A stretch of DNA of 64,000 nucleotides from Zygnema cylindricum (Eukaryota; Streptophyta; Zygnematophyceae; Zygnematales; Zygnemataceae): the NCBI GenBank assembly GCA_037447655.1, contig JBBHKE010001289.1, positions 85,691 through 149,690 of the forward strand, read 5' to 3'. The notes below the pieces were generated by a model. The model saw nothing but the letters and a program-made list of their open reading frames with translations. It made no database searches and was not told where the DNA came from. The translations under genes and the position numbers were made by a program. Positions within the stretch are counted from its first letter, which is position 1. The number at the start of each line of letters is the position of its first letter. Below, piece after piece: positions 40 to 47,587 of this stretch.

Positions 40-111
40 AAGTCAATGAGGTACAGGATTTCAACGATGGACGATAGAATGCTTCCACTCAACTGGTTGC
101 CATTTAGCCAA
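40..111 (-). CDS. LRR gene exon 15: LRR13, drifting from consensus
   Basis: The exon is 72 bp, acceptor GGTACAG, donor GTAAGACAC. It encodes WLNGNQLSGSILSSI then VEILYLID. Pro of SIPSS is Leu and the GQLTSL part is changed, but there is no stop. The gene must continue left of the window; this exon still ends in phase 2. Confidence 0.7.
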
Positions 112-3100
112 CTGTACCATCGGCCATTCTCTTACCCCCACCCCAACACCCACCCCAAAAGCCTCACCGTTGGTATGGGTGCAACGTTATTAAAAGTAAA
201 ACAAGTCGAGTAAACTTAAGAAAAGATGCTTTTAAAGGTTTTTTATCCACCATCATATTGACAAAAAACACCATAATTCGGTATGTTTGACTTTCACACA
301 CAATATTGCATTTTTTTCATATCTCAACCTCCCACCACTCTTCCTTGCAAATAGCCACCCCCCTCTTTAACATAACGTCACTCAATTTTTCCAGATTATA
401 AGATTTAATTGAGAATGATAATGTTAACATCAACTTAATAAATCTAAAAAGACGTAAGTCACATATTAAAAATTCTTAAATACGGAATCCCAAATCAGAA
501 AAAAGAAAGAACACATTGAAGAGGCATTCTATCATGTCAAGTTTTTAAACAAAAAATATTTATCAGTCTAATCCCTATTCACATTTTACTTGTCTTTACC
601 TCGGTCTCTTTTTGTCATCCCTTCCTTGCTTTAGCCGATTCAAAAGGTAAGAAAAATAAAAAAAAGAAAGTAATTCACAGAACCACAAAAAAACAAACAC
701 GCCTAACATATGCAACAGAAAAAAAAAATACATTTTTCTCCCACCATATGGCTTTTATTTAGCCTCCAACCCTTTCACTCCCATCCCTTTCATCATGAAA
801 AAACATTTCCCAAGGAACCTAAAAAAATGAAAAAAATCACTTGAAATAGAAAAAAAACTACACAAATGTTAGATATGATCTAACTACAACACTTTGGCTT
901 TCACTCACAATTTTCTACCCAAACTCCAACTTCCTCAATTAAGTCACTTAATTTCCAATATTTATATTGTATTAGTTATAAACAAAGATAGAACAAGTAA
1001 AGTAGTTTTACAAAAAGATTAAATACAATTATAAAAACAAAATAAACTATTAATGATAAAATGTCAAAGATAAATTTATTTTGTTCCTTTTTCCTCATTC
1101 AAACTCTTTTTTAATCTTGATCATTGTACTTTTACTAGTTCATATTTATTATATTGTTATTTTAGACATTACAAAAATCTATTAATATTTATAACAACTT
1201 GTGGTGATTTATCATTTATAATATTTATTAGTTATCACATACTTATTTGAAAACACTTCTCCAAGTAAATATGTCAATCAACCAAATAGTGAAATAATAT
1301 GATTATTTACAATAAGTTCAAAAAAAAAGTTGTCATAAACTATAAGAATTCAGAAATCAATGTTGATGCATGACATAACCAAAGTGTCATGTGTCTTACG
1401 ACTGTTTGAGCAACATCCCCCGATCAATAGAAAATGGAATGCTTCCACTTAATTGGTTGTTATATAAATATCTGTGACCATCCCCAACCCACGAATCCCC
1501 ATCTCCCCCCGTTTCCACCCAAAAAATACTTGTTAGTCAAAATATGTAATATTTTTTTCGTTTTGTTATTCACGAGTTCCTAGTTGATACATCTAGAGGG
1601 TTTTTATCCACCATCATACAACACAAAAGAAAACATGATTTTGACTTGATACTTTATTTTACTTAAAATATTGATGTTTAACGCAAAATACACTATACTG
1701 TGTTTGTTTGCATCTCTTTTATCTCCCCGTTTTTATAGTTTGTCACTCGATTTTTTATAATTTAAATGATTTATTTAGGAAAAATAAAAATATGAGTAAA
1801 AATAAACAATGTACTATTATGTAAACATAAAGAGATATCTCCAATAAAGATAACGAAGAGAAAAGAAAACCTTATTATCATGTTTCAAAACACAAGACAA
1901 ATATCAGTCTTATCGTTTCTTACAAAATATATATATATATATGCATGAGAAGTACATAGACACAAACCTACCTCGCATTTTATACCCCATAGCTGTTATC
2001 CATGGGTTATTCCATTTCAAATGATAAAACAAACATATTAAAACCATTTAAAAAAATAATAAAATCTCAAAGTTTGGAGAAATAAAATGCTCATGCAATG
2101 TTTTCACAACAAATGGATTTTTATCACAAGATCCCGTCCCCTCTTGTCCTTCCACACTAGAAAAAAGAAAGCTGTAAAACCTCTCCCTCTGTTTCCTTCA
2201 CGGTTTTGTGTTTTTTGAGATCTTCCCGGAAAAAAGGGGGGGGGCAAAAGGGGGGGGGCAAAAGGGGGGGTCAAGCAATAAAAATAATAAAAAATAACAA
2301 AATAAGAAAAAAATGTATAAAATTGACAAGAATGGCGTTTCCGAAACATCGCTCTCAAGCACAAAACCCTTTTCACCTCAAAAAAAAAAAAAAAATTACG
2401 TAACCTAACCCCTTCCCCCCCCCCCTCCCGCCCATATCTCACCACTCTTTACCCACCTTAAAATACTACCCGGTCACCTCTATTCTCAAAAACAAAAAAA
2501 CTGATAAAAGACAAAACGTACAAAATAAGCAATTTCCAGATTTTGTACTATAAGAGTTATGCAATTACTCATTTTGCATATTATTGTTATTATTGTTTTG
2601 TAGATGAAACGTATGCCCCCTGCATGTGTTCTCATTTATATATTATAACTTTGTACGTATATTGCCTCAAATTAACGGAAATTTCTCAAATTTCATATAT
2701 CTTAGATTTTTTTTTGTTTTTCTCTTTTTTTTCTGATTTTTCCTGCAACCACTGTAGGGTATGTCAATTGAAAACTATTGTACACACCTGAGAAAATAAA
2801 ACAGACGGGAAAGAAAAAAATGATATTGATAAAGTTATGGTGGCTTTAGAAGGTTTTCATCCTCCCTTTTTCAACCCACTGTTTAACAATGTTTAAACTT
2901 GCTAGTACTTTTTTTTTTTTAAAGGTTTGTTTCTAAATTTTTGGGAAGTTCATGTTCGACCTTTTACTGTCGATTAGGGTAGAAACAATCTACCGCGGCC
3001 TTATAGAATCCTCAATTTCAAATGCAGTTAAAAAAAAAAAATAACAGAAAAAAGCCCAAAATATTTTAAAGGAAAAATTCAAATTGTAAAGGAAAAAACT

Positions 3101-6100
3101 CGGAAATTGCAAAATTCCCTGTTTATACACTACTTTATATTTTTACCCTATCCCCTTCCCCCTTTATCATCACAAAAAGAAAAATCGTCAAAGCCATTTG
3201 AGACAAGAAAAAATTGTGAAAAAATAGAAGGAAAAGTTTGGAATCAGTTGTTTCCACACCGCATCAATTTCAATCACAATCCTCACCACCTCCACCTCAT
3301 CCTCCCCCCACTTCAAGTCCTTTTTTTCTTTTCTCCCATGAAGCCACTTACTACTCTGCGATTAATTTTTTTTTAATAGAAAAATGAGTCAAATAAAAAT
3401 GCATGTTATAACATAATGAAATTACAAATTTTCCGTAAAAAAATCGAAATGCTGGCAATAAAAGTTAAAATCATAAATGAGTATTCTAACGAGTGTTGAA
3501 AATTATTATGATAACTAAAACTCTATTTCAATATTTTTTATTAAAGTTTTTAGGTATGTTTATACACAAGCTATTAAAATTACAATTTATGATTATTATG
3601 TTTTTCCCAAGTTCTCTTACTCTTTTATGATGTTTTTTTATCATAAAATACATTAAAATATATTTTATATATTCATTACGATATAATTTTTTAATTAATA
3701 TTTATTACCACTGATGATTTACACTTGTTTACCACTATTAATTGATTTGTACCATATAGTACATATTACCATTTTGCGTTTTACTTGATAACACTATTAT
3801 GGATAATAAAGTAGTGTCACTAGTAGAAAATATTATACTTCAATTCAAAAGGCCCTCCATCCCATCCCCCCTTCCAACAATAAAAACTATCACTTTTCAT
3901 CCGTGACATAGCCAGAGTGTCGTGTGTCGTACAAGTAATCGAGCTTTATGAGTTGAGAAAAGGAAGATGGAATTCTTCCACTCAATTTGTTGCCAGAAAG
4001 ATCTCTGTAACACCGACCATTCTCCTTCCCCTCCCCCTCCGCCCCAAGGTGTTTGTGAGCTAGTATGGGCTCTAAGACTAGACCAAAAGAAAAAACTCAG
4101 TAAGTATATTTAGCAAACACGAGTGACGATTTTTTCATCGGATGCTCATCTTTCCCCCTCTTGTAATTTGACAAACTGAAAAGGAGAGAAAACACCCTTT
4201 CGAATTTTGAAGCATTTTTCACCAAGTGAAAAAATCAACAAAAAACATACAAATTATAAAACACGAATGTTTGGCTTTCTTAACACCCTTTCCCGACCCC
4301 CCCTCATGCTCGGCTCACACGCATAGAAAACAAAAGATTAAAAGGAAAAAGTAAATGAAATGTAAATTTTCAGTTTTTTTATTGAAAATAAATACTTCAC
4401 AATATTTCTATTTTTTCATATTCGTGCAAGATGTAACCCCCAACCTTGTGTTCCTCCACAACCTCTGACTTCGCTCTCTCTCCCTTTTTTGTCTAATAGG
4501 AGTTAAAAATGGCACAAGGGGTGGGTGGGAGGGAAGTATAAGGCGGAGCTGGCTGAGTGGAAAGCATGCGGGGTAGAGGGTAGAAGTGGTGGGGGGTGGA
4601 GATTAGTGGCTACGCGGGGTGGGAGGGAAGAGGGTAGGACAGCGAGGCAAGTAAAGGGTGAGGGGTCCAGCGTGGGTAGAGGGCAAAGGGAGTGGTGAAA
4701 GATATCGAGTAGGGAAAGGCGCAGGTGGATTTACTTATGAAATATAGTAGAGGGTAAAATGTTATGGGGGGGGGAGAGGGTAGAGGACCACAAGGAAGGC
4801 GAGTGGTGTTCTCCATGGGTTATGGTGTGAGTATGGAGTATCGTTGAAAGAAAGGGGGGTGGTGTGTATGTGTGTGTGTTATGTTTTCTTGGATGGATTC
4901 TAAGCATCTACTTATTTTCTATATAATGGATTTTAGGGATTTTTCATAAAAGGAACTACTTTTGGGATTCAACGGGTGATGTTTGTTTTCTTTTGCACAG
5001 ACGACGGCTTGAAATAGTGCAAATATGGGAAAGGTGACAAGGGGAAGGGAGGTGTTGGAGGGAACTTCTTAAATATTATTATATTCTATAGTACAACTCG
5101 CATATTTTTTCTTATGTGTTGAAATCGTTTTAGGGTTTTTCAAGGTTTTATGTGGATTTTAAAGGATTCTTAGGGTTTTTTGGGGTTTTGTTGAAGTGTC
5201 CGTTGTGATCATCAAATGTTATCATTAACGAGAGAAAAAAAAAGAAATTTTACTCGCAAACATGTTAATTATTTTTTCAATCTGTTTGTTACTTTTTATC
5301 TTTTTATTTCTTTTGAGTTTGAGATAAGATGGGTTTCAATTTCAAACGTGTCATTGTTTCTATTCAAAAATGAAAAAAAAAACTTCGTAACGAAATTTAT
5401 GGAAATTTCATGGTCGATTCTCTAGTCGAAGTTAGGTTTAAAAACATTTACCCATCCTATAAGTTGTTCTGTTTCAAATTTTGAAAAACTTTAAATTTTT
5501 AAAATCCGGAAAAAAATTGAAAGAAGATTGAAATTCGCAAATCCAATAAACATCGAAATATGCAAAATTTCACAACACATTACATTTGCTATGATTACCC
5601 CTCTCGGCTAGCGCTCGCCCCTAGTTTAACGTCTCAAAATAAAATCCATCGAAACCATTTGAAAAGGTAAATATACTTTGAAAAACATTAAAGATTTATG
5701 CACCACATTGCTTTTACACCACATCAATTTCATTCACAATCCTCTCTAATACATTTATTATTTTGTAATTTTGATAAAATCTAGCAATATGTTTGTTCTA
5801 ATGATTTTTGTGTTATACAGCATTACTTATGATTAATTCCTATTTATTTTTTAGTATTTTATTGTAAATATTGTATGTTTACTTATTATTAATGATAATG
5901 AAGTATCATTAATATTACTAATATAAAACACTTTTTTGATCACGATCCCCTCCATTCTTCTTTCCGCCATCCTCCACCACTAACCACAACCATTCAGAAT
6001 ACACTTTTGATATGTAACGTAACCATAGTGTCACGTGTCTTACAGCCATGTGAGGGATTTCATTTCACCAATGGACGATGGAATGCTTCCACTAAATGTG

Positions 6101-9100
6101 TTGTTAAACATCCATCTGTGACGCCGAGCAATTGAAGTAGACCAATTTCCACAGGAGTGCCCCCAAGTTAGCATTGGCGACAAGGTTACACAAGAAAAAA
6201 AATATTCAATAAGAATATTTAGGAAGTACATGAGAAAATATTGTATCAAACACCCATTTTGTAAATGTTAACAGCAATAGGTTTGTTAGTGGTTCTGAAA
6301 CCCTCTCTTACTAAACACTGAATATGGATAACCTAAAATAATAAAAAAAAAACGAATTCGCAATGGAAAAAAACCCAAAATTGCAAAATGCCATGTTTTT
6401 ACAGTACATGACATTTTCCCCTATCCTTCTTCCCTTTCATTGTCACAAAAGAAAAACCATCAAAGCCATTTGAAAATAGAAAAATTGTAAAAAAATTGAA
6501 GAAAGACTTTGGAATCCGATAATTTTACATTGCATCAATTTCAATCGCAATCCTCTCCATCTCCAGCCCACCATCCCGCCACTTGAAGTCCTCTTTTTTT
6601 TCCCTCACCAAGTCACTCAGTATTCTATGATTGAATTTCTTTCAGTAAAAAAATGAGTAAAATGAAATACATGTTATAACATAAGAAAAAAACAAATTTT
6701 CCACAAAATAAAAATCTGAAATATTGAATTGAAAAAACAGCATAAAGAAAGTGTATTATGAACGAGTGTGGAAAATTATTATAACAATCATAATTCATTT
6801 TAAACAAATATATACATATTTTAATATGTTTTTATACAGGCTATCATTATTATAATCAATTAATACTATATTTTTTCTCAAGTTCTCTCACCCTTTACTC
6901 AGGCTTTATTATGATGGAATATATTAAAATATATTTTACATATTTGTTAAGAATATGAATTGTTAGTTCATATTTATTACCATTTATGATTATTTACACT
7001 TGTTTACCACTGTAAATTTTTATACAACTTATGATCATTTTTGTATATTTACTTGATAACACTATTGTTGATTATAAACTATTGTTACTAGCAATAAATA
7101 TTATATTTTAATCCACGATTCCCTATTTCCCATCGCCCCATTCACCTCCAAAAACTATCACTTTTGATCCGTGCCATAGCCAAAGATACACGCGTCTTAC
7201 AAGTGTGGGAGGGATGTCAGTTGACCGATGGACGATGGAATTCTGCCACTCAATTTGTTGCTAGAAAGATCTCTGTGACACATGGCATTCGCAGCAGACA
7301 AATTCCCACCAGATTGCAACCAAGTTAGCATTGGCTAATAAGTCACAAACGAAAAAAAATATTTTGATCCGTGACATAGGCAAAGTGTCATGTGCCTTAC
7401 AATTCTCGGAGGGATTTCATTTGACCAATGGAACATGAAATTTTTCCACTCAATTGGTTGCTCGAAAGATGTCTGTAACACCGTCCATTTTCCTTCCCCT
7501 CTCCCCCCACCCCAAGGTGTCTGCCACTAAGTATGGACTCCAAGGCTATACACCAAAAAGAAAAAACTCAGTAAGAATATTTAGCAAGCATAAATGTCGA
7601 TTTTTTTATCAAATACCCATCATCCACCTTTTTTTATTCGACAAACTGAAAAGGAAAGAAAACACAAAACAACAAAAAACATACAAATTACAAAAGAATG
7701 ATGTTCCGCTCCCTTAACACCACCCTCCTCCCCCGCCCCCCCCCCTCCTCGGCTCACAAACATAAAAACAAAAGATTAGAAGGAAAAAAAAATGACATGT
7801 AAATTTTTAGTTTCTTTAATTGTAATTAAATACTTTACAACATTTTTATTCTTTTATTTTCGTGCATGAGATGTATGCCCCCACCTTGTGTTCTGCCATA
7901 ACCTTTGACTTCACCCTCCCCCCTTTTTTTGTCAAATGGGAGTTAAGTATGGCACAAGGGGCGGGTGGGAGGGAAGTATACAGGTTGACTGGCTGAGTGG
8001 AAGGCAGGCGAGGTAGGGTAGGGCAGAGAAGAGGGTAGAGGGCGAGGGGGCCTAGCGGGTAAAAGGCAAAAGGACCAGCAGAGGATATCGGGTAGGGAAA
8101 GGGCTAGGTGGAAGTAATCATGAAATATGGTGGAGGGTAAAGTGTAAAAGGGGGGTAGGGGGTAGAGGACCACAAGGAAGGCGGGTGGTGTTTTACATGG
8201 GCTGTGGTGTGAGTAAAGGCTGTAATTGGGGGAAAGGTGGGTTGTGTGTTTATGTGTTTGTCCGTTTTAATTTTTTGGAGTGGTTGTAAACATCCACTTA
8301 ATTTCTATATAATGGATTTTAAGGATCTTAGAGAAAAAAACACCATTTTAGGGAATCAACGGGTGATTTTTTTTCTCTTTTGCTCCACCGAAGACTTAAA
8401 TAGTGTGGATGTGGGAAAAGGCCGCAAGAGAGGGGGTGTTGAGAGGAACTTTGTGAAGATTATTATATAATTTTATTTTACAACCAACCGTAATTTTTAT
8501 TTGTTGAAACCATTTTAGGCTTTTTGTGGGCATTTTATGGATTTTTAGTATTTTTTGGAGTTTTTTTAAAAAGTTCGTGTGACCTTAAAATGACAAAATT
8601 AACGAGAGAAAATAAGAAAATAAGTCTACTTTCAAACTTGTTAGTTTCTACTTCAATTTTTCAATAAACCATTTCTTTGTTTTTTTATTGTGAGTTAAGA
8701 TGGGTTTCAATTTCTAGCGTGTAAATTTTTATTCAAAAAGAATAAAAAATATCCTAACGAAATATATGGAAGTATGGTCGGTTCTTCGGCCAAAATTAGG
8801 TTTAAAAACATTTGCCCACCCATAGGTTGTTCCGTTTCAAAGTTTAAAGATTTTATTTTTGTAAAATCCGCAAAACAAGTTAGAATAAAATTGAAAATTC
8901 GCAAAAAAAATAAACACCGAAAAATGTAAAATTTCACACCACATAACATTTTCTATGGTTACTCCTCCCGAATCTCTCACTTCCCACCCCCCAATTTCAT
9001 TTCACAAAAAAAAATCCATCGGAAATATTCAAAAAATTAAATAAATGTCGAAAAACATTAAAAGATTATATACCACATTGCTTACACCACATCAACTTCA

Positions 9101-12100
9101 TTCATAATTCTCTTTTATATATTTTTTCTTTATTTTTTTTATAAAATTTAAAATACATATTTGTTCGAATTATTTTTTTTGTTATAACATTTTTCTATCA
9201 TTAATTCCTGTTTACTGTTTAGTATTTTATTGTAAATTTTGTTTGTTTACTTATGATTAATGGTTATGATATATCATTAATATTACCAATATATAACGTT
9301 TTTTTGTTCAAGATCCCCTCTTTTCTTCTTTCCTCCATCCTCCACCCACCACAACCATTTAGAGTACAAGTTTGATCCTTGACATAACCATAGTGCCACG
9401 TGTCTTACAAGATTTGGAGGCGTGTGAGTTGACCGATGGACGATGGAATGCTTCCATTCAACTGGTTGTCATTTAGATCTCTGTGACACCGTCACAGGGC
9501 AGTTGCAACAGACCAATCCCCACCGAGTGCCGCCAAGTTATCATTGGCTAAAAGGTTACAAACGAAAAAAATATATTCAATGAAAAAATTAAGTAAGTAC
9601 ATGTAAAAATATTCTATCAAACACCCATTTTATAGGTTTTACCAAAATAAAGTTTGTTAATGGTTTTGAACCCCTCCCGTTAGAAACATTGAAAATGGAT
9701 TTTACACCCGTTCAAAGGTTAGAGATTTTTTCCCTAAAAAGTGGAAAAAATCAAGACAAGACAAAAAATACATAACCTAAACCCTTCCCCCTCTTTTCCC
9801 ACCTATATCTCACCACTGTTTAACCTCCGTACAAACCTTACTTCATAGCCTCTATTCTTATAAACAAAAAAAATGAAGAAAAAGGTACATTACAAGCAAT
9901 TTCCGGATTTTGTTCTGTAATAGTTATGCAATTACTCATTTTTTATATTTTTGTTTTGTGGATAAAATGTGTACCGTTTTCTAATGTTCTAATTCACATT
10001 TTTTTCTCCAATTCTTTTTAGAAGCTGTACATATATTGCCCCGAAATTCACCTATATTTTTCAAATTTCACTATTCTTGGATTTTTTTTGTTTTTCTTTT
10101 TTTTTTTCCGGGTTTTCCAACATCCACTGTAGTGTAATTCTAGAAAGTGACTATGTACATATACCGAACAAAAGAAATACCGACGGGAAAAAAACATTTG
10201 ATATTGATAAAGCTATGGTGAATTTCGAAGGTTTTCATCCTCCCTTTTCCTCCCCGTTGGTTAACAATGTTTAAACTTCATAGTAGTTTTTTTTCTTTTT
10301 TTTTAAAAGGCTCGTTTCCTAATTTATAGGATTTTCATGTTCTATCTTTTATTCTCAATTTGGCTTAGAACAATTTACCGCGGCATTATAGGACATTCCA
10401 TTTCAATTAGAATAATACAAATAGAAAAACAAAAAAACCCCAAAATAACATTAAAAAAAAGTTCAAATTAGTAAAAGAAAAAACCACGAAATTGCAAAAT
10501 GCCATGACTTTACATTACATGACATCTGTCCCCTACCCCTTTCCTCCTTTCTCAATACAAAAAGAAAATCATCAAAGCCAATTGAAAAAACAAAAAAAAA
10601 TAGAAGGAATTTGTGAATGCGTTGTTTCTACACCTCATCAATTTCAATCACAATCCTCTCCACCTCCACCCCACCCTTCCCCTACTTCTAAGTACTCATT
10701 TTTTTTTCCCTCACCAAAGCCACTTACTATTCTATGATTGAATTTCTTTCAATAGAAAAATGAGTCAAATACGAATGCATGTTATAACTTAAAAAAAATC
10801 GTTCCACAATTTTTTTTATTATTTTGATAGTTAGAAATAAAATAATGAAAGAGTATTATTAACGTGTGGAGAATTCTTGTGATAATCATAAATATTTTTG
10901 AATTTACATACCTATTGCTTTGTATATATTTATATACAGACTACTATTATTTATACCATAATTCTCTCAAGTTTTCTCACCCTAAAATGATGTATATTAT
11001 CATGGAATATAATAAAAACATTTTACACATTCGCTGAAAATGTAAATTGTTAGTTCATATTTATAGCCATTTATGATTATTTAGACTTGTTTACCACTGT
11101 AAATTTTTATGCACTGTTCAGTACTTATGATCATTTTTGTATATTTACTTGATAACACTATCATTGATTATAAACAACTTTGACTAGTAATAAATATTAT
11201 ATTTCGATTCACGATTCCCTATGTCCCATCCCCCCATCCACCTCCAAAAACTATCATTTTTGATCCGTGACATAGGCAAAGTGTCATGTGTCTTACATGT
11301 AAAAGAGGGATGTGCATTGACCGATGGACGATGGAATTCTGCCACTCAATTTGTTGGTAGAAAGATCTCTGTGACACATGGCATTCGCAGCAAAAAAATT
11401 CCCACCCGATTGCAACCAAGTTAGCATTGGCTAATAAGTCATAAACGAAAAAATATATTGTGATCTGTAACATAGGCAAACTATCATGTGCCTTACAAGT
11501 ATCGGAGGGATTTTATTTGACCAATAGAACTTGGAATTACTCCACTCAATTGGTTGCTCGAAAGACCTCTGTAACACCGTCCCCCACCCCAAGGTGTCTG
11601 CCACTTAGTATGGACTCCAAGGCTATACACCAAAAAGAAAATACTCATTAAGAATATTTAGCAAGCAAAATTGTCAATTTTTTTATCAAATACTCATCTT
11701 CCCCCTTATGTTTATTTGACAAACTGAAAAGGAGAGAAAACATCCTTTCGAGTATTGAAGCATTTGTCACACCTCCCACCCCCGATTAAATTTCACATAA
11801 AAAAAATCCATCGAAACCATTAAAAAAAGTAAATAAACATTGAAAACATTAAAAGATTATTTACCACATTGCTTTTACACAAAATCAATTTCATTCACAA
11901 TCCTCTGTTATATATTTTTTCTTTATTTTTTTATAAAACTTAAATATATTTTTGTTCTAGTGATTTTTTTGTTATAATATTTTCCTATCATTAATTCACT
12001 ATTTAGTATTGTATTGTAAATTTTGTATGTTTACTTTTCATTAATGATTATGATGTATCATTAATATTACTAATATATAGCGTTCTTTTTTCACGATCCC

Positions 12101-16507: not shown

Positions 16508-16542
<35 letters not shown>

Positions 16543-19500
16543 ATATATTAAATCATATGTTTATGTACAGGCTATTATTATTATGATTTATTAATACTAT
16601 ATTTTTTCTCAAGTTCTGTTACCCTTTACTCATGTTTCATTACAATGGAATATATTAAAATATATTCCAAAGATTGGTTAAAAATATAAATTGTTAGTTC
16701 ATATTTATTACCATATATGATTATTTACACTTGTTTACCATTATAAATATTTATGTACTGTTCTGCGTACTATCATTGCTGTATATTTACTTGATAACAC
16801 AATTATTGATAATGAATTATTGTTACTAGTAATAGATGTATTATATTTTAATTCATTCCCCATTTCCCATCCCCCCATCTCACACCAAAAACTATCACTT
16901 AACTATCACTTTTTATATGTGACAGCCATAGTGCCACGTGTCTTACAAGTATTGGAGGGATGTCAGTTGACCAATAGACGACGGAACACTTCCACTGAAA
17001 TTGTTCCTAAAAAGGTCTCTGTAACACCCTTTCCCTCTCCCCCCCCCTCAAGGTGTCTACCAGTTAGTATATGCTCCAAGGCTATACACCAAAAATCAAA
17101 AACTCGGTTAAAATATTTACCTAGCAAAAGTGACGTTTATTATCAAATTCCCATGTTATCACCTGTTATTTAACAAAATGAAAAGGAGAGAAAACACCCT
17201 TTCGATTTCTAACGCATTTATCACCAAGTGGAAAAAACAATCAATCAAAAAAAAATTACAAAATAACAATGTTCCGCTCCCTTTTTGTGGAACATCGTTA
17301 TTTTTTCTCACTTTTTTTTTTTTGTCTATTGGGAGTTTTTACCACATCATCCCACTCTCCACCCGATCAAATGTCTTCCTGCTAATATCGACCCAAAATT
17401 AAACCCTTAAATATGAATGCATTCTATGTTTGTGCATGGTTTTAATCCACCATCAAAACGTGACAAAAAAACACAATTTTTTGTTTGATCTTTTGTTTTA
17501 ATTAATATATCTGATTTATGAAGGCACAAAATCCACACTAAAGCACTTTTTTTCATTTCTCCTCCCCTTTTTGCACTCCTACATTTCGCCACTCAGTTTT
17601 ACCCAATCTAAATGATTTATTCAAAAATACTAAACAGATAGAAGGTTAAGTAGTGAGGGTAAAAACTATGGGGCAGAGGGAATAGAGGTGAGACACCGAG
17701 CATCCTCACCCCATCATAACCCAACCCCCCCAAGAGCCTCTTATGAATTTAGGCTACAAGGTTATACACCAAAAATAAAACATGGTAGAATTATTTTTCA
17801 GAATTCCATCTGACAAATACAATTATGCATTACTTTACTGGTTTCTATTTTGCATACATTACATTTGACTCCCCCCCCAATTGAAAAAATTTAGACTAGG
17901 TTAAACATCCCCCAAAGGTTATAGAATTTTCTTAACAAATCAAAAATTAAAAAAAAAAAATCAACCTAAGAAATTTACCCCCGTCCACCTCCCCCCACCT
18001 GGTTTCCCCATCTACACACCCTCTCTGCGCCCCAAACCCCCTCCCTCGTGATTGCCCCCACCACCTCTTTTATTTCCTTAAACAAAAACAAAAGATCACA
18101 AGAACAAACAAACATGTGACACAACTTCCATTTTTTCGCGATAATAATTTTGTAATTTTTTTATTTTATTTGTTTCTATTTGTTTTTATTTGCGCCTTCC
18201 CCCCTCCTTGTATTTACTCACAAATGTGTCAGTTTTGTGAGGTTGCCAATCTCTGCCGCAATTCTACCCACCAATCCGGTTTCGCGTAAAGTTCTGCACC
18301 CCTTTGCACCCCTTTTCCTATTAGTTGATGAGGAGCATCCCCACGTCCTATCCCCCCACACCCCTCCTTTGGATTCTTTTATGCCCAAAGGAATATTTTC
18401 ACCACTTTTAAATTGTAGTCGGACACGTTTTTGATACTCAATCCTACCCCTCCCCTCTGTTACAACTCATAGAAAGAATCGTATGCGCGCAGAATCGGCT
18501 CGATTTTGCAAGATTACTTTCTAGAATGAATCGCAAAAGTACTTCCACGTACGATTTCGCGAAAGTACCATTATATTTGTTTTGCGATATATTTGTTGTT
18601 TCGTTTCAAGTATAGAATTGTCGTACGTCTAATATAGTACGATAGTACTTAAGATTTGTCTAGTACTTTCGTTCGTTTTGACTTGTCGTATTGCATTGTT
18701 TTCAGCCCTTAGTGAAAATTAGAGTGTTCTAGGTTAATCTGTGGACAGGTGGCAGATTTCTAGAGGTATCTTGGCGGTGCACGCTTACACGTGCCGCGCC
18801 ATGGCTATTGTGTTATCTAAGGGACACTATGGGCTTGTGTAATTATCAATCAGAAATGCATTAGAGAAATACATGGAGGAATAGAAGAGATAAAGGAGAT
18901 GGAAGAGAAACTGTAATTTCGGTTTTTATAAATGTGAGAATTTTTCCGAAATTTCTTCTCAATGTTGATTCAATGTATTGTAATCTGAATGCTTTTGCTG
19001 CCACATTCATTTGTTAGTGAGCTCTAAGTTTATTATCGATCCTTTCATTTGGCATCAAAGCGGGTAGAGCTCCATTGTAGTGCCACCTTCGGTCATGGGG
19101 GGAAGGAATAAAATGAAGGCCCCATTCACTCCCTCCTCTTCAGCTACCCCCGTCGCGAATATTTGGGAAAATCTGCCGACTCCCGAGAATCCTCCCAAAG
19201 AAGAAAGAGAGTTCACTTTTTCCGGAGCCGCATTTGAGTCATCAATCCCCACGGATTCGTTTGATCAAAATAGAGGTGTCGGTGGCTCGATGTCTGACAA
19301 TCAAATGCGAGAGTATTTCTAGAGTTTCATGCATCGAATTGATGAGAAATTTTCGGCCGTGGATAGGAGGCTTGATGATCTAGCTCATGGTGAGCCAGAT
19401 CGCGATACAGATAGAGGAGATTCCGCTGATGATGATGAGGGGGCGAAGAAAGAGAAAGATAAATGGAATCAAAAGCTTGATGATGATTCTGATTTAGAGG

Positions 19501-22500
19501 AGGATAGTCGAGGAGTGAAAATGTTTCAATGCCCGAAAAGACCGGTGTCTTCAATGGATCGAATTACCCTCCGTGGAAGAAGTACATACGAGCTCAATTG
19601 ATTTTGATAGGTCTTTGGAAAGACGTAAATTGAGAAGAGAAAATGCGGGTTGGAGATGCGAAGGCTCGTTGGTTGTGGAAGCGAAAGAATCTTGCGGCCA
19701 TCACCGGATTGATGCAAACGTGTTCGGTGTCTGTGCATGACCATTTTCTCACGTATAGCATCGCACACGGATGTAGGTGTTGGAATCCCAATTCAAGAGG
19801 GGAATCCAAAACAAGGAGCAATACATGTTCTCCAACTTCATGCAATTAAAAAACTAATCTAATGAATCTATTGACGATGCTGTGAAGAGATTCAATACTA
19901 TTGTGGAGTAGCTTCTTAACAATTGGAAAGTGATCACAGTGGAGGACAAAGAAACCGGATTTTTGAATGCATTACCGGATAAGTGGATCCACCTCAAAAA
20001 AGATTTTACTCGCGAGGGAGAATAATACTTACGCATTTATTGTGATTTATCTGAAGATGGCGGAGAGTAATCATGTCACTTCCTCAAAAGGCTCCTTGGT
20101 CACGGGATCCTTGCATGTGGCCGCTCTCAATTTCGCGGATATGCATTATTTCCGTGGAAGAGGGGTTGTAAAAGGAGGAGGATCAAGAGGTCGTGAAAAT
20201 GGCTTGATAGGGATTTGAGACCTCGGTCCATCCACAATGATAATAGCAACGTCTTGTGTTTCCGTTGCAATTGGCCTGGCCATATTTCGGCCTCTTGTCC
20301 GGAAAAAGAGACAATGATTCAATTGCGGAAAATTAGGTCATACACGTCAGCAATGCTACTCTAAATTAAGTATCGGAGGAGGAAGTGGCGCAGTTTTGCT
20401 GGCCGCGGCCGTGGACGTGAAAATGGTCATGGTCGTGGACGCTATGGCAGCTATGGCGGCAGCCACAGAAATTTCGTCGACTTCGGAAATTTTGAAGGAG
20501 GCGAAAGAGGACAACTCTAAATTAAGTATCGGAGGAGGAAGAGGCGCAGTTTTGCTAATCGCGGCCGCGAGCGTGAAAATGGTCATGGTCGTGGACGCTA
20601 TGGCGGGCATGGCGGCATCCATGGAAATTTCGTCGACTTCGGAAATTTTGAAGGAGGCGAAGGAGGACAGATGTTCACTTGTGTGCACCTCCCAATCGGT
20701 TCACTAACTGAATTAACTGATGCACGCAAAAAAAAGTGGAGAATTGACACGGGGGCGTCTCACCACGTGTGTACGGACGCTGCACTATTTGACAACATAC
20801 GTTCACTTACAGTACCAAAAATTACGGTCAAGAGTGGAGAAAACATTACAGTTGGTACAATGGGTACCGTTGATTGAATCTTACCCACGTGGGACCGTTT
20901 AGGAAATGAATTGATATCCGAGGCGCGTTTACTCAACGTGATCTGAGGCGCATTTACCCAACGTCCTATATATTCCGGATGGTTTAGTGAACCTATTGAG
21001 AGTACCACCTATTGAGCGTACCTCAAATTCAGCGCGCCGGTGGGAGCGTAGTAGCTTCATACATTTCGGGAATTTGCATACATCGGCAAATTAATCGGTG
21101 AAGGAGAAGTCACCAATTCGGTGCACAACCGACTTCTATGGAGGCGACCGAGGAAGAATGCTCTTTCAACGGGCATTCTAAATCAAATCTCAGAATTAAA
21201 GGGAGATTTGACGTTACGGCACCATTGGATGTGTCATACAGCCAAGGGCGATTTAAGGAGAATGAAAAAAACGCCATGTGTGAGGGGATTAGATCTTGCT
21301 ACCGCAAAAAAGTGAATGGATGCGATAGATGTAGTCAAGGACGACAAATTCGTAAACCACATCCAACGAAGGATGTGAAATTTCAAGCTCAACATCCTAT
21401 GGAGCTTGTCCATGCTGATCTATGTGGTCAAATTAAACCGTAAGCCGGAGAGCCTTGGAGGAAATCGATATATTATGGTCATCGTTAATGATTATTCGAG
21501 ATTTTTGTGGGTTCGATTATTGAAGCAGAAATCCGATGCTCTTGAAACTTTTATTGAGTGGCAAGCATTTGCAAAAAAGCCAATGCAAAAGTTGAAAGCC
21601 ATTCGTTTGGATAATGTGGGAGAGTTTATCGCATTTGAGGGTATTGTAAGGAAAAAGGAATTACTTAACAATTTATATCGCCTTTTTCTCCGGAATCAAA
21701 AAGAGTAGCCGAAGGAAAGAATAGAACCTTACAAAAATGATAAGAGCGATGGTGAATTCGGCCGGTCAAAGTATCTCATTAAGGGGAGATGCCATTCTCA
21801 CGGCCATATACATTTGTAATCGGAGACTTACTTCGGTCTCTGGTGACAAAACACCATTCGAATTACTTTATGGGCAAAAACCGGCTCTCTATCATCTCCG
21901 AATTTGGTGATGTCACACTACGTTGTATGTGGATCAAGTGAAAAGAAAAGGGAAATTTGCGGCGAGAAGTTGGCCCGAAATTTTCGTTCTATAGTACGAA
22001 AGAAAATCTTTATCGTGTATTTCATCCCGTTCGTCGCATCATGGAAGAATCCCGCAATGTGAATATTCAAGAAGATCTAAATTCGGTTGTTGAGAAATCA
22101 ACGAAATTGAAGAGGAATCTTGATTTCTATGAAGTGAACAATGTTGCCAATTTCCCGGAGATTGAAGACTACAATTCGGATGAAGAGCCGAAATCCATTG
22201 TCAACATTAAGAAGGGGAAATTGAATGTTGATTCGCGTTTGGATAAATTGGACATTGACATTGATGTTCGGAGTAATGTGAGCCGAAATTCCAAAATGTC
22301 GACGCAAAGTCGGAAATAATCAAGTTCAAAATCGAGTTTACCAAATGTGGATGGGAGGAACAAAATGTGGAACAAGTTCCGGTCCTTAGGCAGAGTACAC
22401 AAGAGAATAGAAGAAATAAACCAAATCTGCTTTCTTATGAAAAATTTGGTGGAGATAATTCTAATTCTCATTATTTCGTCTCCGATCCAAAAGAGAAGGA

Positions 22501-25500
22501 ATTTTTTTTATAGCAATTAATGTGCATGTATTTGGCCGGCGATCCTCAATCATACGCCGAGGCGAGAAACTTGTGTGATTGAAGACAAAGTGGAAGCTGG
22601 CATGGGAGGAGTATAAGTCAATTGTGGAAAATCGAACATTGCAGGAAGAAACATTATCGGAAGGGAAAAAGGAGATTGACACGAAATGGGTCTTCAAAAC
22701 AAAAACCGGTGCATCGGGTGAAGTAGTAAAGTTCAAGGCTAGACTTGTATGCAAAGGATTTCAACAAAGAGAGGGGGTAGATTACATGGAGACATATGCT
22801 CCCGTTGTGAATTCGATACTCTAAATGATTATGGCGATTGCTGGCGCAAAGAAGAAACACGTTTATCAAATGCATGTGGCGACCGCGTTTTAGAATGGAG
22901 ACTTAGAAGAGGTTTATATGAAGGTACATGAAGGCATGACGTCACGGAAAGGTACGGTATGGCGCCTTCGCAAATCACTCTACGGATTGAAGCAGGCGCA
23001 TCGCACTTGGTATCTACGCTTACATAAAGCTTTTTTGGAATTTGGTTTCAAGCGTACGTGAAAAGACACGGGTAGAATCCAATTATATTTTCAGTGTACG
23101 TCGACGATTTCTTGATGACGTCGGATAGTTTTGAACGTATACGCCAATTGAAGCGTACTTGCGTCAACATTTCAAATTGACAAATCTTGGCGAAGTAAAA
23201 TATATTAGGGATTGAAGTGATTCATAATGGGATCAAAGATATGAAGTTAAGTCAAGCGCAATACTGTAAGGAGGTATTAACGCGGATTTCCATGTTTGAC
23301 GCAAAACCTATTTCAACGCCTATAGACGCAAAAAGTCAATTTCGAAAGTTTGAGGAAGAAGCTATGGTTGACGTTCCTTACCCCAAAGCTATTGGAAGTT
23401 TAATGTAACATAGTGTTGGTACAAGACCCGATATTTCACCGGTCGTTCCAATTGTTAGTCGATATTGTCAAGCGCCCAAGAAATTGCATTGGGAGGCCGT
23501 AAAGCGAATCCGGGGGAGGTTTCGATTCGGAAAAATCCACGCCCGGATACGCATTCGTATTTGGTGGAGCGGCGATCTCGTGGAGTTTGCGTCTCCAACC
23601 AACCGTGGCACTGAGTTTATCGGAGGCCGAGTATATGGCGGCGTGCCACGCAAGCAAGGCGTCTATATGGATAAGCAAAATATTGGGCCAACTTGGATTC
23701 TCAATTGGTTGTTTAAAAATGTTTACAGATAGCATGAGTTCAATGGCCCTTGTGAAAAATCTCGTTTCTCAAAGGCGCACTAAACATATACGGAACCAAA
23801 GGCATTTCGTACGAGATCTTGTAGCGGCAAAAGAAGTGGAATATCAGTATGTATCAACACTTAAAAAGTTGTCGATATGCTTACCAATGCGGCGACGTTC
23901 GATGTACTTTCAAGAGGAAGACCTAAATTAGGATTGATGTGATGGAGACGATTCTTCAATGAAGAGGGGGAATGTTACAATTCATTGAAAGAATCGTACG
24001 CGCGCGAGATCGGCTCGATTTTGCAAGAGTACTTTCTAGAATGAATTGCAAAAGAACTTCCACGTACGATTTCGCGAATGTACTATTATACTTGTTTCTT
24101 GATATATTTGTTGTTTCGTTTCGCGTCTAGAATTGTCTTACATCTAATATAGTAAAATAGTACTTTAGATTTGTCTAGTACTTTTTTTTTGGCTTGTCGG
24201 TTTATAATGTTTTCAGTCCTTGAGGAAAATTAGAGTGTTCTAGGTTAATCTGTGGACAGGTGGCAGATTTCTAGAGGTATCTTGGCGGCGATCGCTTACA
24301 CATGCGCGCCATGGTTAGTGTGTTATTTAAGAGACACTATGGACTTGTGTAATTATCAATCAACAATGCATTGGAGAAATACATGGAGGAATAGAAGAGA
24401 TAAAGGAGATGGAGGAGAAACTGTAATTTAGGTTTTTATTAATGTGAGAATTTTTCCGAAATTTTTTCTCAATGTTGATTCAATGTTTTGTAATCAGAAT
24501 GCGATTTATTTGTTGGTGAGCTCTGTGTTTATTATCGATCCTTTCACCCCCAACCACCACTCCCTTTTGATGCATGTATGTAGAGAGATTTTAACATCCC
24601 TCCCATTGGTCGTACAAAACTTATATCGTTTATTTCAAACTCCACTACCACCCCCACCCGCTCACCCTTCCGACCTCCTTATCTCCCTCATGCATTAAAC
24701 AAAATCACCTACATATTTTATAAGGTCATTGAAATATTTCCTTATTCTCTCACCTTCCCCATCCCCACTACTCTCCACTTAACATAGATACCTAAGGGTT
24801 ATTTGCACCCACACATAGCTTATTGAGAAAGTTCTTTCATACATTCCTCCCCCCCATCATCTCTTTACAACTCCTCTACTAAAAAATCCCCTCATTCTCT
24901 CCACCACTCTTTACCCAACCCCCCTCCCCATGTCAACCAGTTACTTCAATCTCTCACCTCCTTTGCCCCTTTCACCCTCTCTCACCTTATGAGTTTTCTC
25001 ACTCTCTTCAACCCCTCTTTCCCTTCCGTGTTCCCCTTTCGCCCTTCTACCCTGCTCTTCTACGATATTCCTCATTCTGATATTCCCCCTTTCCCCCTCT
25101 TTTTGCCCTTGTCCTTCTCCTCACTAATTCCCACTTTCTTTCACCTTCCCTCTCCTCTCCCTTTTAGGACACAGTAATTATCTTCCACCCCTCCCTCCCT
25201 CTCTTTGCACACTTCCTCCTCCCTCCCTCTCCAAACAAGATCCCTTATTATCTCTCCCCCCCTATCCCCCTCACTGCTCCCTCTCCTAATGATTTCCCTT
25301 ATTCACCCACCTCCTCCCTCCCCTCCCCCCCTTCTCGTGCAATCCTTCCTTAACCCCCCCCTCCCTCTTTTCTCCCTCCGCTGCAACACACTCCTAGCGA
25401 GACACATCATTCTAGAATTCCTCCCTTCGCCTACCCACCCCCTATCTTTTTTCCACTTTTCCCCTCTCCCTCTCCCAACAAAATCCCTCAATATCCGGTC

Positions 25501-26738
25501 CCTGTTTTCCCCTTCCTCCCTATTTTCCCCTCCTTATCCTAACAAGATCCTCGGTATCGTCTCCCCCTCCCCCTCTGTTCTCCCACCCTCCTCCCGCCTC
25601 CCTCCTCCCTCTCCTTACGAGCTCCTAGTATCTCCTAGCTCCTCCCTCCACCCTCCCCCTTTCCCCCCCTCCCCCCCTTTCATTCCCTCCTAGCAAAATT
25701 GCGCACTCTCTTCCTCTCCCTTTCTCCTCCTTTCCCCTTTCCCCTCCTTTCGTCCCTTTCGTTTTCTTCTCTCCCTCTCCATCGAGATCGCTCATCCTCA
25801 TTCCTACCCTTCCCCTCTCCCCGCTTCTCTCCTCCATCTCCTAACGAGACCGTTCATTCTCTTCTACCCCTCTTCCACCCTCCTCCTGCCTCCCCCTCCC
25901 CGCCCTCACCACTCTGCCTCCCTTTCTCCTTTTCCTCCCCCTCCCCTCCCTCCCCTAAACAAATCCCTCATTCGCTCTCCTTCCCTCTCTCCCTTCCGCC
26001 CCCTCTCTCCTATATACCCATGTAGATATCATCATCCCTCTTCACTGGTCGTTGAAAGCGATGCCTCATTCTCCCCTTTCCCCTCCCTCCTTCCCCTCCC
26101 TCCTTCCCTCCCTCCTATCAAATCACCCTGCGGCTTGTTAATCCCCTCCCAATGGTCATCGATAGAGTCCTTTGTGTTCTTCTCCCCTCTCCCTTTCCTT
26201 TCCCTCCTCTCCCCTCCCCTCCCCTCCCCTCCCCTCCCCTCCCCTCCCCTCCTCTCCCCTCCCCTCCCCTCCCCTCCTCTCTCCTCCCCTCCCCTCCCCT
26301 CCCCTCCCCTCCCCCCTCTCTTTCCTAGTAGTTCAGTGCAATATTCAGTGCGAGATTCAGTGCGAGATTCACTTAGGAGAGAGTGCACGCAGCGCCCGTC
26401 ACTCACATCTCCAACACGCGGCCGTAATTGTCGCACGGGAAAGATCCTCCCCCGCATCTGATTGGGGGAAATTCCTCCTTGTTCGCGATCGCCGCCTTCA
26501 CCGCCTCCAGAGCCGACTCTGCAGCACAAGTACGGACAGACCAGGCAGAGGAGCCAATCAGATTACTATTTCGCACGTGTGAAGGCATGGACCACAGACC
26601 AGGAAAGGGGAAAGGGGAGGGTAAAGGAGGGGAAGACTTACTGTCGGGCTCCGGCATGGGTCCACGGTAGTGTCCCATCACAAGTGCCACGTGGCACGCT
26701 AAGATCAGCACTGTCGCGAAGACCATGGGAGCAGCCAT
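40..26738 (-). CDS. Giant-intron leucine-rich-repeat receptor-like gene, 5' part (15 exons seen; 3' end outside window)
   Basis: Probable secreted or cell-surface LRR receptor. Coding exons, in transcript order: 26642-26738, 26407-26518, 18222-18293, 16947-17018, 14083-14154, 12187-12258, 11497-11568, 11297-11368, 9409-9480, 7401-7472, 7201-7272, 6044-6115, 3933-4004, 1400-1471, 40-111. Joined they give 1,145 nt (381 codons plus 2 nt) with no stop. Exon 1 is a signal peptide, exon 2 an LRR N-terminal cap ending GRVLE, and exons 3-15 are 13 LRRs of 24 residues with the plant consensus NxLSGxIPSSIGxLxxL. Every LRR exon is exactly 72 bp and phase 2, usually splitting a Leu codon as TT/A. Introns are 123 bp to 8.1 kb and mutually related. 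Whether a transmembrane segment and kinase follow cannot be seen. Exon calls come from frame, length, splice sites and motif agreeing; no transcript was available. Confidence 0.9.
1400..1471 (-). CDS. LRR gene exon 14: LRR12, drifting from consensus
   Basis: The exon is 72 bp, acceptor GGTCACAG, donor GTAAGACAC. It encodes YLYNNQLSGSIPFSI then DRGMLLKQ. The N-terminal half keeps the consensus. The second half has lost GQLxxL, though the frame is open. Its last two bases (TC) give Ser with exon 15. Confidence 0.72.
3933..4004 (-). CDS. LRR gene exon 13: LRR11
   Basis: The exon is 72 bp, acceptor GTTACAG, donor GTACGACAC (slightly weaker than GTAAG). It encodes DLSGNKLSGRIPSSFSQ then LIKLDY. 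The donor-side flank matches the exon 8/11 type and the acceptor-side flank the exon 7/10 type, so it looks like a fusion of the two paired exons. Confidence 0.86.
4511..4815 (+). repeat. G-rich intron block, copy 1 (GGGTAGAGGG-like)
   Basis: A G-rich stretch starting GGCACAAGGGGTGGGTGGGA with recurring GGGTAGAGGG and GGTGGGG runs. It is homologous to blocks at 7951 and 14661. In the sense pre-mRNA of the LRR gene (minus strand) it is C-rich; the plus strand could form G-quadruplexes. Confidence 0.7.
6044..6115 (-). CDS. LRR gene exon 12: LRR10
   Basis: The exon is 72 bp, acceptor GTCACAG, donor GTAAGACAC. It encodes WMFNNTFSGSIPSSIGE then MKSLTW and ends CT/, giving Leu with the next exon. 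Aromatic and hydrophobic residues (W, M, F) occupy normally variable exposed positions. Confidence 0.86.
7201..7272 (-). CDS. LRR gene exon 11: LRR9 (paired exon)
   Basis: The exon is 72 bp, acceptor GTCACAG, donor GTAAGACGC. It encodes DLSSNKLSGRIPSSIGQ then LTSLPH. It is nearly identical to exon 8, which lies 4,096 bp away in the next duplicated block. Confidence 0.87.
7401..7472 (-). CDS. LRR gene exon 10: LRR8 (paired exon)
   Basis: The exon is 72 bp, acceptor GTTACAG, donor GTAAGGCAC. It encodes HLSSNQLSGKISCSIGQ then MKSLRE. Ser-Cys replaces the usual Pro-Ser of IPSS, a conservative framework change. It is paired with exon 11 across a 128-bp intron. Confidence 0.86.
7951..8200 (+). repeat. 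G-rich intron block, copy 2
   Basis: Same block as 4511-4815, inside intron 9. It starts GGCACAAGGGGCGGGTGGGA and carries many GGGTAGAGGG-type words, ending near GGTGGTGTTTTACATGGGCT. Confidence 0.7.
9409..9480 (-). CDS. LRR gene exon 9: LRR7
   Basis: The exon is 72 bp, acceptor GTCACAG, donor GTAAGACAC. It encodes DLNDNQLNGSIPSSIGQ then LTRLQI with no stop. Its intron flanks match exon 6. Confidence 0.87.
11297..11368 (-). CDS. LRR gene exon 8: LRR6 (paired exon)
   Basis: The exon is 72 bp, acceptor GTCACAG, donor GTAAGACAC. It encodes DLSTNKLSGRIPSSIGQ then CTSLFY. It ends AT/ rather than TT/, so the junction codon is Ile. A Cys replaces the usual Leu or Met after SSIGQ. Confidence 0.87.
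11497..11568 (-). CDS. LRR gene exon 7: LRR5 (paired exon)
   Basis: The exon is 72 bp, acceptor GTTACAG, donor GTAAGGCAC. It encodes GLSSNQLSGVIPSSIGQ then IKSLRY. It starts exactly 200 bp from the matching point of exon 8, across a 128-bp intron. The same 200-bp pairing recurs at 7201/7401. Confidence 0.87.
12187..12258 (-). CDS. LRR gene exon 6: LRR4
   Basis: The exon is 72 bp, acceptor GTTACAG, donor GTAAGACAC. It encodes HLEENQLSGSIPSSIGQ then MTSLQI. The acceptor-side intron is the second flank type, which contains a conserved stretch near 12270-12330 shared with exons 8, 9, 11 and 12. Confidence 0.87.
14083..14154 (-). CDS. LRR gene exon 5: LRR3
   Basis: The exon is 72 bp, acceptor GTTACAG, donor GTAAGGCAC. 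It encodes GLSNNQLSGKIPRSIGQ then MKSLQN. It is closest to exons 7 and 10 at residue level (GLSSNQLSG and HLSSNQLSG, with IGQ-[IM]-KSL). Confidence 0.87.
14661..15000 (+). repeat. G-rich intron block, copy 3
   Basis: The same block in intron 4, with the clearest tandem GGGTAGAGGGTAGAGGGTAG run around 14,720-14,755. Confidence 0.7.
16463..16556. repeat. AT-rich (TA)n microsatellite in intron 4
   Basis: Alternating TA tracts broken by short T runs. Simple sequence, with no coding signal. Confidence 0.8.
16947..17018 (-). CDS. LRR gene exon 4: LRR2
   Basis: The exon is 72 bp, acceptor GTTACAG, donor GTAAGACAC. It encodes DLFRNNFSGSVPSSIGQ then LTSLQY with no stop. It is the first repeat of the amplified family in transcript order. 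The donor-side intron resembles that of exons 8 and 11, and the acceptor-side intron resembles that of exons 7 and 10. Confidence 0.87.
18222..18293 (-). CDS. LRR gene exon 3: LRR1, diverged founder-type repeat
   Basis: The exon is 72 bp. The acceptor is GGGTGCAG before AACTTT and the donor is TT/GTGAGTA. It encodes TLRETGLVGRIAAEIGN then LTKLTH. Joined to exon 2 it reads RVLEI-TLRETGLVGRI, a normal first LRR after an LRRNT. It uses EIGN rather than SSIGQ and lacks the flanking intron repeats of the other LRR exons, so it is not part of the recent amplification. A Copia LTR begins 164 bp upstream of its acceptor. Confidence 0.85.
18458..19047 (+). repeat. 5' LTR of intronic Copia element
   Basis: TG...CA boundaries. 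Homologous along its length to 23973-24546, with several base changes and about 17 extra bases near the 3' end. Confidence 0.9.
19080..20700 (+). pseudogene. Copia gag pseudogene (UBN2-type Gag with zinc knuckles)
   Basis: A broken Gag: fragments include ITGLMQTCSVSVHDHF (about 19,700-19,745), which matches the Gag of the 57-62 kb element. It also has a CCHC zinc knuckle (CFRCNWPGHISASC) at about 20,255-20,300, and a second half-knuckle (CGKLGHTRQQC) at about 20,325-20,355 whose first Cys is lost in a frameshift. A Gly/Arg-rich tail follows, duplicated in tandem. Several stops and frame changes mean no intact Gag could be made. Confidence 0.85.
20361..20672 (+). repeat. 156-bp in-frame tandem duplication in Gag RG-rich tail
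   Basis: Two copies, 20361-20516 and 20517-20672, starting CTAAATTAAGTATCGGAGGA. Each encodes a GRGRGRENGHGRGRYG-like segment. 156 bp is 52 codons, so the duplication itself keeps frame. Confidence 0.85.
20720..23935 (+). pseudogene. Copia pol pseudogene (protease, integrase, RT, RNase H)
   Basis: Protease motif RIDTGASHHVCTD lies near 20,740-20,780. Integrase pieces follow at 21,120-21,900: an LVHADLCG start, NDYSRFLWV and a degraded catalytic region. RT begins near 22,580 with WVFKTKTGASGEVVKFKARL and reaches YVDD near 23,095-23,125. RNase H with LSEAEYMAACHA lies at 23,600-23,935. Many frame changes and stops separate the parts. The best resemblance is to the 57-62 kb element. Confidence 0.87.
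23973..24546 (+). repeat. 3' LTR of intronic Copia element
   Basis: Starts immediately after the polypurine tract and ends CTTTCA at 24546. Partner of 18458-19047. Confidence 0.9.
24700..26335. repeat. Pyrimidine-rich minisatellite in LRR intron 2
   Basis: Almost pure C/T on the plus strand, punctuated every roughly 80-120 bases by short purine-containing words such as AACAAGATCCC, CATCGAGATCGC and CTAACGAGACC, so it is a degenerate tandem repeat rather than random. In the LRR pre-mRNA it reads G/A-rich. Long plus-strand reading frames here (for example 25205-25693) are compositional artefacts. 24,547-24,700 is transitional, with nothing recognised. Confidence 0.75.
26206..26316. repeat. (CCCCT)n pentanucleotide microsatellite
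   Basis: About 20 near-perfect CCCCT units with occasional CCTCT. It begins about 90 bp downstream of the exon 2 donor of the LRR gene; the transcript strand is (AGGGG)n, with strong quadruplex potential. Confidence 0.9.
26407..26518 (-). CDS. LRR gene exon 2: LRR N-terminal cap (LRRNT)
   Basis: The exon is 112 bp. The acceptor follows a pyrimidine-rich stretch ending TGTGCTGCAG, and the donor is GAT/GTGAGT. The joined codon at the 5' side gives Lys, so the mature N-terminus reads PDKSALEAVKAAIANK, matching the helical start of LRR caps (D-x-x-AL-x-x-x-K). It continues to a two-Cys segment, IRCGGGSFPCDNYGRVLE, comparable to the usual C-x-x-x-GRVxxL end of plant LRRNT domains. The last codon is split after two bases, the phase needed to join the 72-bp LRR exons. 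Read without splicing it would stop at once (ATG TGA), which could mislead gene callers into a small secreted peptide. Confidence 0.8.
26642..26738 (-). CDS. LRR gene exon 1: signal peptide
   Basis: Starts at the ATG read from CAT at 26736-26738 and encodes 32 residues plus one base. The N-terminus MAAPMVFATVLILACHVALV is hydrophobic and followed by MGHYRG, a typical signal peptide. It ends at a strong donor, CCCGACA/GTAAGT, after the residues MPEPD. Intron 1 is only 123 bp. The start is chosen because it is the first in-frame ATG ahead of the hydrophobic core; a second Met at residue 5 is possible. Confidence 0.82.
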
Positions 26739-29019: not shown

Positions 29020-29563
29020 TACACCGCCAATCGTTATTAGTGTGTACGTTTTTTTAGCGTATAAAAATAATTACTGTGATGTACGCTGTTTAAGAATTTG
29101 ATAATTTTGGAAAAAATCATACATTCTAATTGTTTAGTTTTGGTAATTTGGATCTTTGAAAAAAAAAATGTCGGTCGCAAACATGCTTACACTAATATAG
29201 GTCTTCGTACAAAATCTGACAAATCGTACACAAATCGTACATTCACACGGTCGAAACGCGGCTGTCGGACGAATATGTGCGAGCGGGATTTTTTACGACC
29301 TGGTTTTTTTTCCTTTTTAGAACGCACATTCTCATGCGTCCGCGGTTACTAAATCTAATTTATTGTATTTTTTAACTTAAAAAGGTACATTTATGTACGG
29401 TCTGACACTGACCGTACACCACTCTATTTAAGAGACAATGTATTGAAAATAAACCTAAATAGAATAAAGAAAAAAATAGAATGAACTACACTAATGGAGA
29501 ATTAAAAAAAAAAAAAGCGGGACGGAATTAGGGTACACAACGCTAATAACGATTGGCGGTGTA
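29020..29563 (+). mobile_element. Nonautonomous TIR element, TA-flanked, copy 1 (544 bp)
   Basis: Begins TA-CACCGCCAATCGTTATTAG and ends with the reverse complement CTAATAACGATTGGCGGTG-TA. The same termini and interior recur, inverted, at 45722-46261. TA at both ends fits a TA target duplication (Tc1/mariner-like) or a TA that is part of the inverted repeat. An 84-codon frame (29098-29352) is conserved in copy 2 but has no recognised domain. Too small for a transposase gene. Confidence 0.8.

Positions 29564-47506: not shown

Positions 47507-47587
<81 letters not shown>
47507..47587 (+). repeat. (CT)n microsatellite, about 40 units
   Basis: Uninterrupted CT dinucleotides. Confidence 0.95.

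Follow-up and report, generated by a model that had tools for sequence, protein, structure and literature searches.

How is a gene to be recognized when most of its visible exons are 72-bp pieces strewn through tens of kilobases of repetitive DNA, and what keeps such pieces in order while the sequence around them is copied? These questions are raised by the left part of a 64,000-nucleotide stretch of DNA, analysed at its full length and called the window below, in which an initial annotation had described a minus-strand LRR gene hidden in DNA that looked like satellite. On our reading, the locus is quite probably a protein-coding streptophyte gene whose LRR product is secreted or exposed at the cell surface.

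A chain of 72-bp LRR exons

A scan of both strands for open 72-nt segments between AG and GT or GC located 13 minus-strand segments, each exactly 72 bp, preceded by AG, followed by GT and in phase 2 (Table 1). All of them stand, to the base, where the initial annotation had put them; when joined they read as LRRs with zero stops. The start and cap exons, also part of that proposal, have splice sites and join the LRR exons in frame. The ATG exon translation begins MAAPMVFATVLILACHVALVMG..., a start judged hydrophobic by eye. The minus strand holds 12 LRR-patterned AG-72-GT segments (12 rather than 13, because the divergent LRR exon 1 fails the pattern used); none occur on the plus strand, and none arose in any of the 20 cases in which the minus strand was resampled by a Markov model. 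A DNA profile built from the exons with 20-base flanks recovered the same 13 exons from the window, with the next match at E 2.6; a protein profile run over its six frames did likewise, with the next match at E 0.64. By these profile searches the window contains no second LRR gene, and no decayed LRR exon copy was found.

Table 1. Location of the array exons and of other features, in window coordinates
Feature	Position	Strand	Basis and remarks
ATG exon, hydrophobic signal-peptide-like start	26642..26738	-	97 bp; leaves phase 1; donor GTAAGT
Cap exon, LRRNT-like, two cysteines	26407..26518	-	112 bp; leaves phase 2; acceptor CTGCAG, donor GTGAGT
LTR retrotransposon, in intron before LRR exon 1, antisense to gene	18458..24546	+	Direct repeats and peptide
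LRR exon 1 (divergent)	18222..18293	-	72-bp scan, profile searches
LRR exon 2, class K	16947..17018	-	72-bp scan, profile, intron alignments
Intron 2-3, mosaic	14155..16946	-	Class X over bases 1-1,005, class Y over 1,013-2,792 (blastn)
LRR exon 3, class K	14083..14154	-	72-bp scan, profile, intron alignments
LRR exon 4, class C	12187..12258	-	72-bp scan, profile, intron alignments
LRR exon 5, class K, first of close pair	11497..11568	-	Scan, profile, self-comparison, intron alignments
LRR exon 6, class K, second of close pair	11297..11368	-	Scan, profile, self-comparison, intron alignments
LRR exon 7, class C	9409..9480	-	72-bp scan, profile, intron alignments
LRR exon 8, class K, first of close pair	7401..7472	-	Scan, profile, self-comparison, intron alignments
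LRR exon 9, class K, second of close pair	7201..7272	-	Scan, profile, self-comparison, intron alignments
LRR exon 10, class C	6044..6115	-	72-bp scan, profile, intron alignments
LRR exon 11, class K, sole donor here GTACGA	3933..4004	-	72-bp scan, intron alignments
LRR exon 12, second half off LRR consensus	1400..1471	-	Scan, profile, entropy analysis
LRR exon 13, second half off LRR consensus, last exon in view	40..111	-	Scan, profile, entropy analysis
GMPP (mannose-1-phosphate guanylyltransferase) gene, six exons, streptophyte type	52168-54992	-	tblastn edges

Pfam LRR_1 matches the joined LRRs with E 2.3e-47. Set against the plant-type consensus LxxNxLxGxIPxxIGxLxxL, the 13 repeats read as a tandem of plant-type LRRs, exons 12 and 13 in part only. 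Among the best 60 of 378 matches, the closest PDB sequences are plant LRR ectodomains, with GSO1 first and FLS2 and MIK2 also present. A search with the joined protein, which scored just the 7,961 candidates with the most shared words, returned a top match of 47% identity and a highest identity of 52% among the 120 listed of 6,816 matches; with residues 1-125, identities reached 61%, but across 39% of the stretch (120 listed of 529). No close relative of either query stands among the matches listed. The sequence gives good support to the proposal of a single split gene in which each 72-nt phase-2 exon encodes one LRR.

Coding sequence makes up 1,145 of the 26,699 bp of the visible gene, or 4.3%, in line with the earlier estimate of about 4%. 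Exon 13 has no stop and closes with a donor that lies 39 bases from the left window edge, so the gene very likely continues beyond that edge, as had been supposed. What is visible comprises a signal-like start, a cap and 13 LRRs, and any transmembrane or kinase part would lie left of base 1.

Between the cap exon and LRR exon 1 there are 8.1 kb that contain an LTR retrotransposon, and the two 5' exons (26738-26407) might belong to another transcript, the 13 LRR exons being real and their gene starting elsewhere. Distance and inserted element would suit such a separation, as would the cap itself, which gave weak alignments to other proteins (cap-like ones, for example P0070 and P0009) and no match to PF08263, which we take to be the usual plant LRRNT cap family, at E up to 1 or up to 10. 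We nevertheless regard it as unlikely: phase 2 is found on both sides of the gap, the join of the cap exon into LRR exon 1 reads MAAPMVFATVLILACHVALVMGHYRGPMPEPDKSALEAVKAAIANKEEFPPIRCGGGSFPCDNYGRVLEITLRETGLVGRIAAEIGNLTKLTH, with GRVLEITLRETGLVGRIAAEIGNLTKLTH as expected of an LRR cap, and the bases just left and just right of the retrotransposon are both C-rich, as in one interrupted intron. The putative link of cap and LRR exon 1 rests on phase, on the reading of the join and on these C-rich flanks. The label 'receptor' is unproven, since the left edge cuts the gene and no LRRNT family was matched.

The LTRs of the inserted element are direct repeats (18458-19047 and 23973-24546) of 87.8% identity. 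The element ends in TG...CA with near-matching 5-base flanks (CCCTC and CCCCC), and its strand was read from an integrase-like peptide recognised by eye at 21453-21524 on the plus strand. Elsewhere in the window lie two minus-strand Ty1/copia-like fragments, one with RVT_2 (57414-58643) and one with integrase, SH3-like and gag_pre-integrs domains (36657-37871). Long C/T-rich low-complexity stretches occupy 25655-26314, in the long intron just downstream of the two 5' exons, and 47507-48465. The peptide TPPIVIS recurs in three open segments (28972-29043 and 45695-45766 on the plus strand, 46309-46238 on the minus strand), which suggests a dispersed repeat.

Duplicated introns and modular exons

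None of the 13 exons is covered by an array in the output of Tandem Repeats Finder run with periods up to 500. The satellite-like look noted in the initial annotation was therefore misleading and satellite DNA is ruled out: the repetition is a multi-kilobase duplication of exons and introns together. Self-comparison revealed duplicated exon-intron blocks of up to 3.4 kb, and in the 15 blocks that span at least 500 columns identity is 70-84%. When the 12 inter-LRR introns were compared with each other by blastn, two classes emerged, X (introns 3-4, 6-7, 9-10 and 11-12) and Y (introns 4-5, 7-8 and 10-11), which alternate such that the unit reads K exon, intron X, C exon, intron Y. Since the introns were duplicated too, and in two alternating classes, the alignments show a two-exon, two-intron unit that was evidently copied about five times. 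Intron 2-3 joins parts of both classes, and either it has lost a C exon with its flanks or the other units have each acquired one. The end of intron 1-2 is Y-like, and intron 12-13 has just 44 bases in common with another intron. In two units the K exon is doubled by a 200-bp step (exons 5/6 and 8/9), and the 128-bp introns inside these close pairs are 92% identical between the two units. Array introns span 128-2,792 bp with a median of 1,552, and the five introns of the GMPP gene measure about 174-465 bp. Unequal crossing-over or slippage within introns would have made the duplicated blocks. With introns that can still be aligned, the growth of an LRR domain, its frame protected, becomes directly readable.

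Each LRR is one symmetric 72-nt phase-2 exon, and an exon-intron block can therefore be duplicated or deleted without a frameshift. All 13 exons split the first Leu of xxLxLxx. The split codon at the 12 adjacent joins encodes Leu in ten cases, Ile in one and Ser in one, and 144 of the 156 ordered exon pairs would give Leu, Ile or Phe at the join. Any LRR exon or block can, as far as its ends tell, be gained, lost or skipped in frame.

Such symmetry, with nearly all joins compatible, would also allow in-frame exon skipping to draw many LRR proteins from one gene, as reported for brown-algal ROCO genes in PMC11378527. Donors in the array differ, with GTACGA at exon 11, and identity is 0.829 over the opening 20 bases of the intron in the 11 copies of exons 2-12, with zero gap events in 300 aligned columns, compared with 0.744 and 0.676 (ungapped) for the two exon halves. 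These features would suit combinatorial splicing, which we consider quite unlikely here: the 40-base donor-side element (GTAAGRCACRTGRCACTWTG...) that follows LRR exons 2-13, in 12 places, has neither a consensus RNA fold nor a further significant site in the window, and its conservation in aligned intron copies is barely above that of the intron body (0.837 versus 0.813). The element may reflect simple common descent; an RNA structure or docking element past the donors was considered and rejected on the fold and site searches.

Constraint and variation in the exons

In all 13 exons the length, the frame and the two splice dinucleotides are preserved, and the aligned introns are full of indels. 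Over the 15 blocks of at least 500 columns, 431 gap events fall within 15,906 intron-body columns versus 5 within 1,055 exon columns, and because all exons have 72 nt these five (in two blocks) are alignment shifts. Identity in the same blocks, which overlap and are thus not independent, is 81.3% in the intron body and 76.1, 80.7 and 75.9% at the three exon codon positions; by substitutions alone the exons are no better conserved than the introns. In drift simulations at the milder setting, which is the fairer one since MAFFT gave 0-19 gaps per kb, P for 12 of 12 copies staying intact is 1.5e-6 on a star tree and 1.2e-3 with six lineages; the harsher setting, which adopts the BLAST gap rate of 27 per kb, gave 3.5e-9 and 5.9e-5, respectively.

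Variation is highest at the exposed beta-strand positions. Mean entropy is 2.29 bits at six exposed positions (1, 3, 4, 6, 22 and 23 of the 23 whole codons), a set chosen from the general LRR pattern with the exon sequences already in view, versus 0.82 at the other 17 (permutation P 0.0005). Positions 10, 18, 19 and 20, outside this set, vary as well. For the 66 pairs of exons 2-13, dN/dS is 1.29 at exposed positions, 0.68 elsewhere and 0.90 overall; for the 15 intron-supported pairs the corresponding values are 1.42, 0.82 and 1.07. In the four recent pairs, which have few changes, the contrast is gone (1.30 exposed, 1.46 framework, 1.47 overall). Relaxed constraint would also give values near or above 1 without a contrast in recent pairs. 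Intron rates provided a further yardstick for four pairs that were picked after the identity and dN/dS results, the intron rate of pair (5,8) being weighted by hand: 23 exposed changes were found versus 14.4 expected (P 0.022), and 28 non-exposed (framework) changes versus 40.8 expected (P 0.022). Pair (3,11) supplies 9 of the 23 exposed changes, and once it is dropped a weak excess of 14 versus 9.7 expected is left. On balance, this modest and mixed record fits a framework that is kept and a binding face that is varied.

The same numbers bear on whether the gene is alive. Were it recently silenced, or the array one of pseudo-exons, with decay too young to show and the antisense retrotransposon as a possible killer, one would expect dN/dS near 1 overall and the framework value of the recent pairs; the degenerate exons 12-13, LTRs of 88% identity in the intron before LRR exon 1 and the lack of a close relative among the matches listed would be in keeping. 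That 13 of 13 exons have stayed intact in length, frame and splice dinucleotides despite so many intron indels, and that framework changes in the four chosen pairs fall below the intron expectation, make silencing improbable to us. A functional coding gene is the reading we prefer. Selection would then keep frame, splice sites and LRR framework as ligand-facing residues diverge; the encoded protein would bind a ligand outside the cell, and a membrane anchor or kinase may be encoded left of the window.

Host lineage and known LRR exon arrays

The 72-bp phase-2 pattern had first suggested a brown-algal ROCO gene, a candidate that was dropped on the host evidence of the GMPP gene. At least 120 listed protein matches of GMPP are 74-96% identical (a Logan protein 96%, two other proteins 88%, four liverwort proteins 83-86%), and every listed match with an organism name is from a streptophyte. 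Given these matches, the host is a streptophyte. In a tree of 27 rows the window sequence, the Logan protein and a single EukProt protein form one group (100/99). Of four groupings named after inspection of the tree, with ferns, lycophytes and seed plants left out, those with liverworts (p 0.185), Closterium (0.461) and mosses (0.085) were retained and that with Chara plus DN7345 was rejected (p 0.0026). At 63325-63963, also on the minus strand, an open frame looks LEA-like to the eye, being repeated and rich in Lys and Ala, with no Pfam family at cut-off. Rfam searches at gathering scores and tRNA scans of the window were empty.

Gene callers and repeat masking could cause a gene to be lost when, as here, its visible part is about 96% intron and its 72-bp exons are set in duplicated introns. 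Should related genes be present in this genome, one could test whether copy number and splicing diversify receptors beyond the flowering plants. Quite unlikely, too, is the wider idea that LRR exon arrays of early-branching streptophytes form a standing generator of diversity, in which germ-line recombination or splicing of frame-safe blocks would yield a cell-surface binding repertoire independently of brown-algal ROCO genes, which employ the same 72-bp phase-2 module. A limited look at open-access titles and abstracts found no such array in a bryophyte or a streptophyte alga.

The plant precedent invoked by the initial annotation is in print: according to PMC3050792, rice LRR kinases with complex structures mostly have 72-nt LRR exons, phase-2 introns and one LRR per exon, with introns that split the first Leu of xxLxLxx. 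The array described here shares with them the 72 nt, the phase, the single LRR, the split Leu and the plant-type consensus. It differs in that its introns can be aligned between copies, with the median length given above and a two-exon unit in view, and in that the gene is visible without a kinase part and runs past the left edge. Brown-algal ROCO genes, as described in PMC11378527, have 72-bp phase-2 LRR exons subject to shuffling and alternative splicing. Tandem exons of this kind and variable concave-face residues are common to both systems, whereas here the host is a streptophyte, as judged by GMPP, the gene has a signal-peptide-like start and any ROC-COR part would lie beyond the window. 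Tetrahymena offers a third case, with arrays of 90-bp LRR exons (PMC6564038): like the present array they consist of uniform phase-2 LRR exons, their growth is ascribed to unequal crossing-over and a retrotransposon lies nearby, but the host is a ciliate and the element LINE-like, where here the exons are 72 bp and an LTR element sits in one intron. The design of 72-nt phase-2 LRR exons is thus already known, and the array in this window is a clear, well-preserved and informative new example of it.
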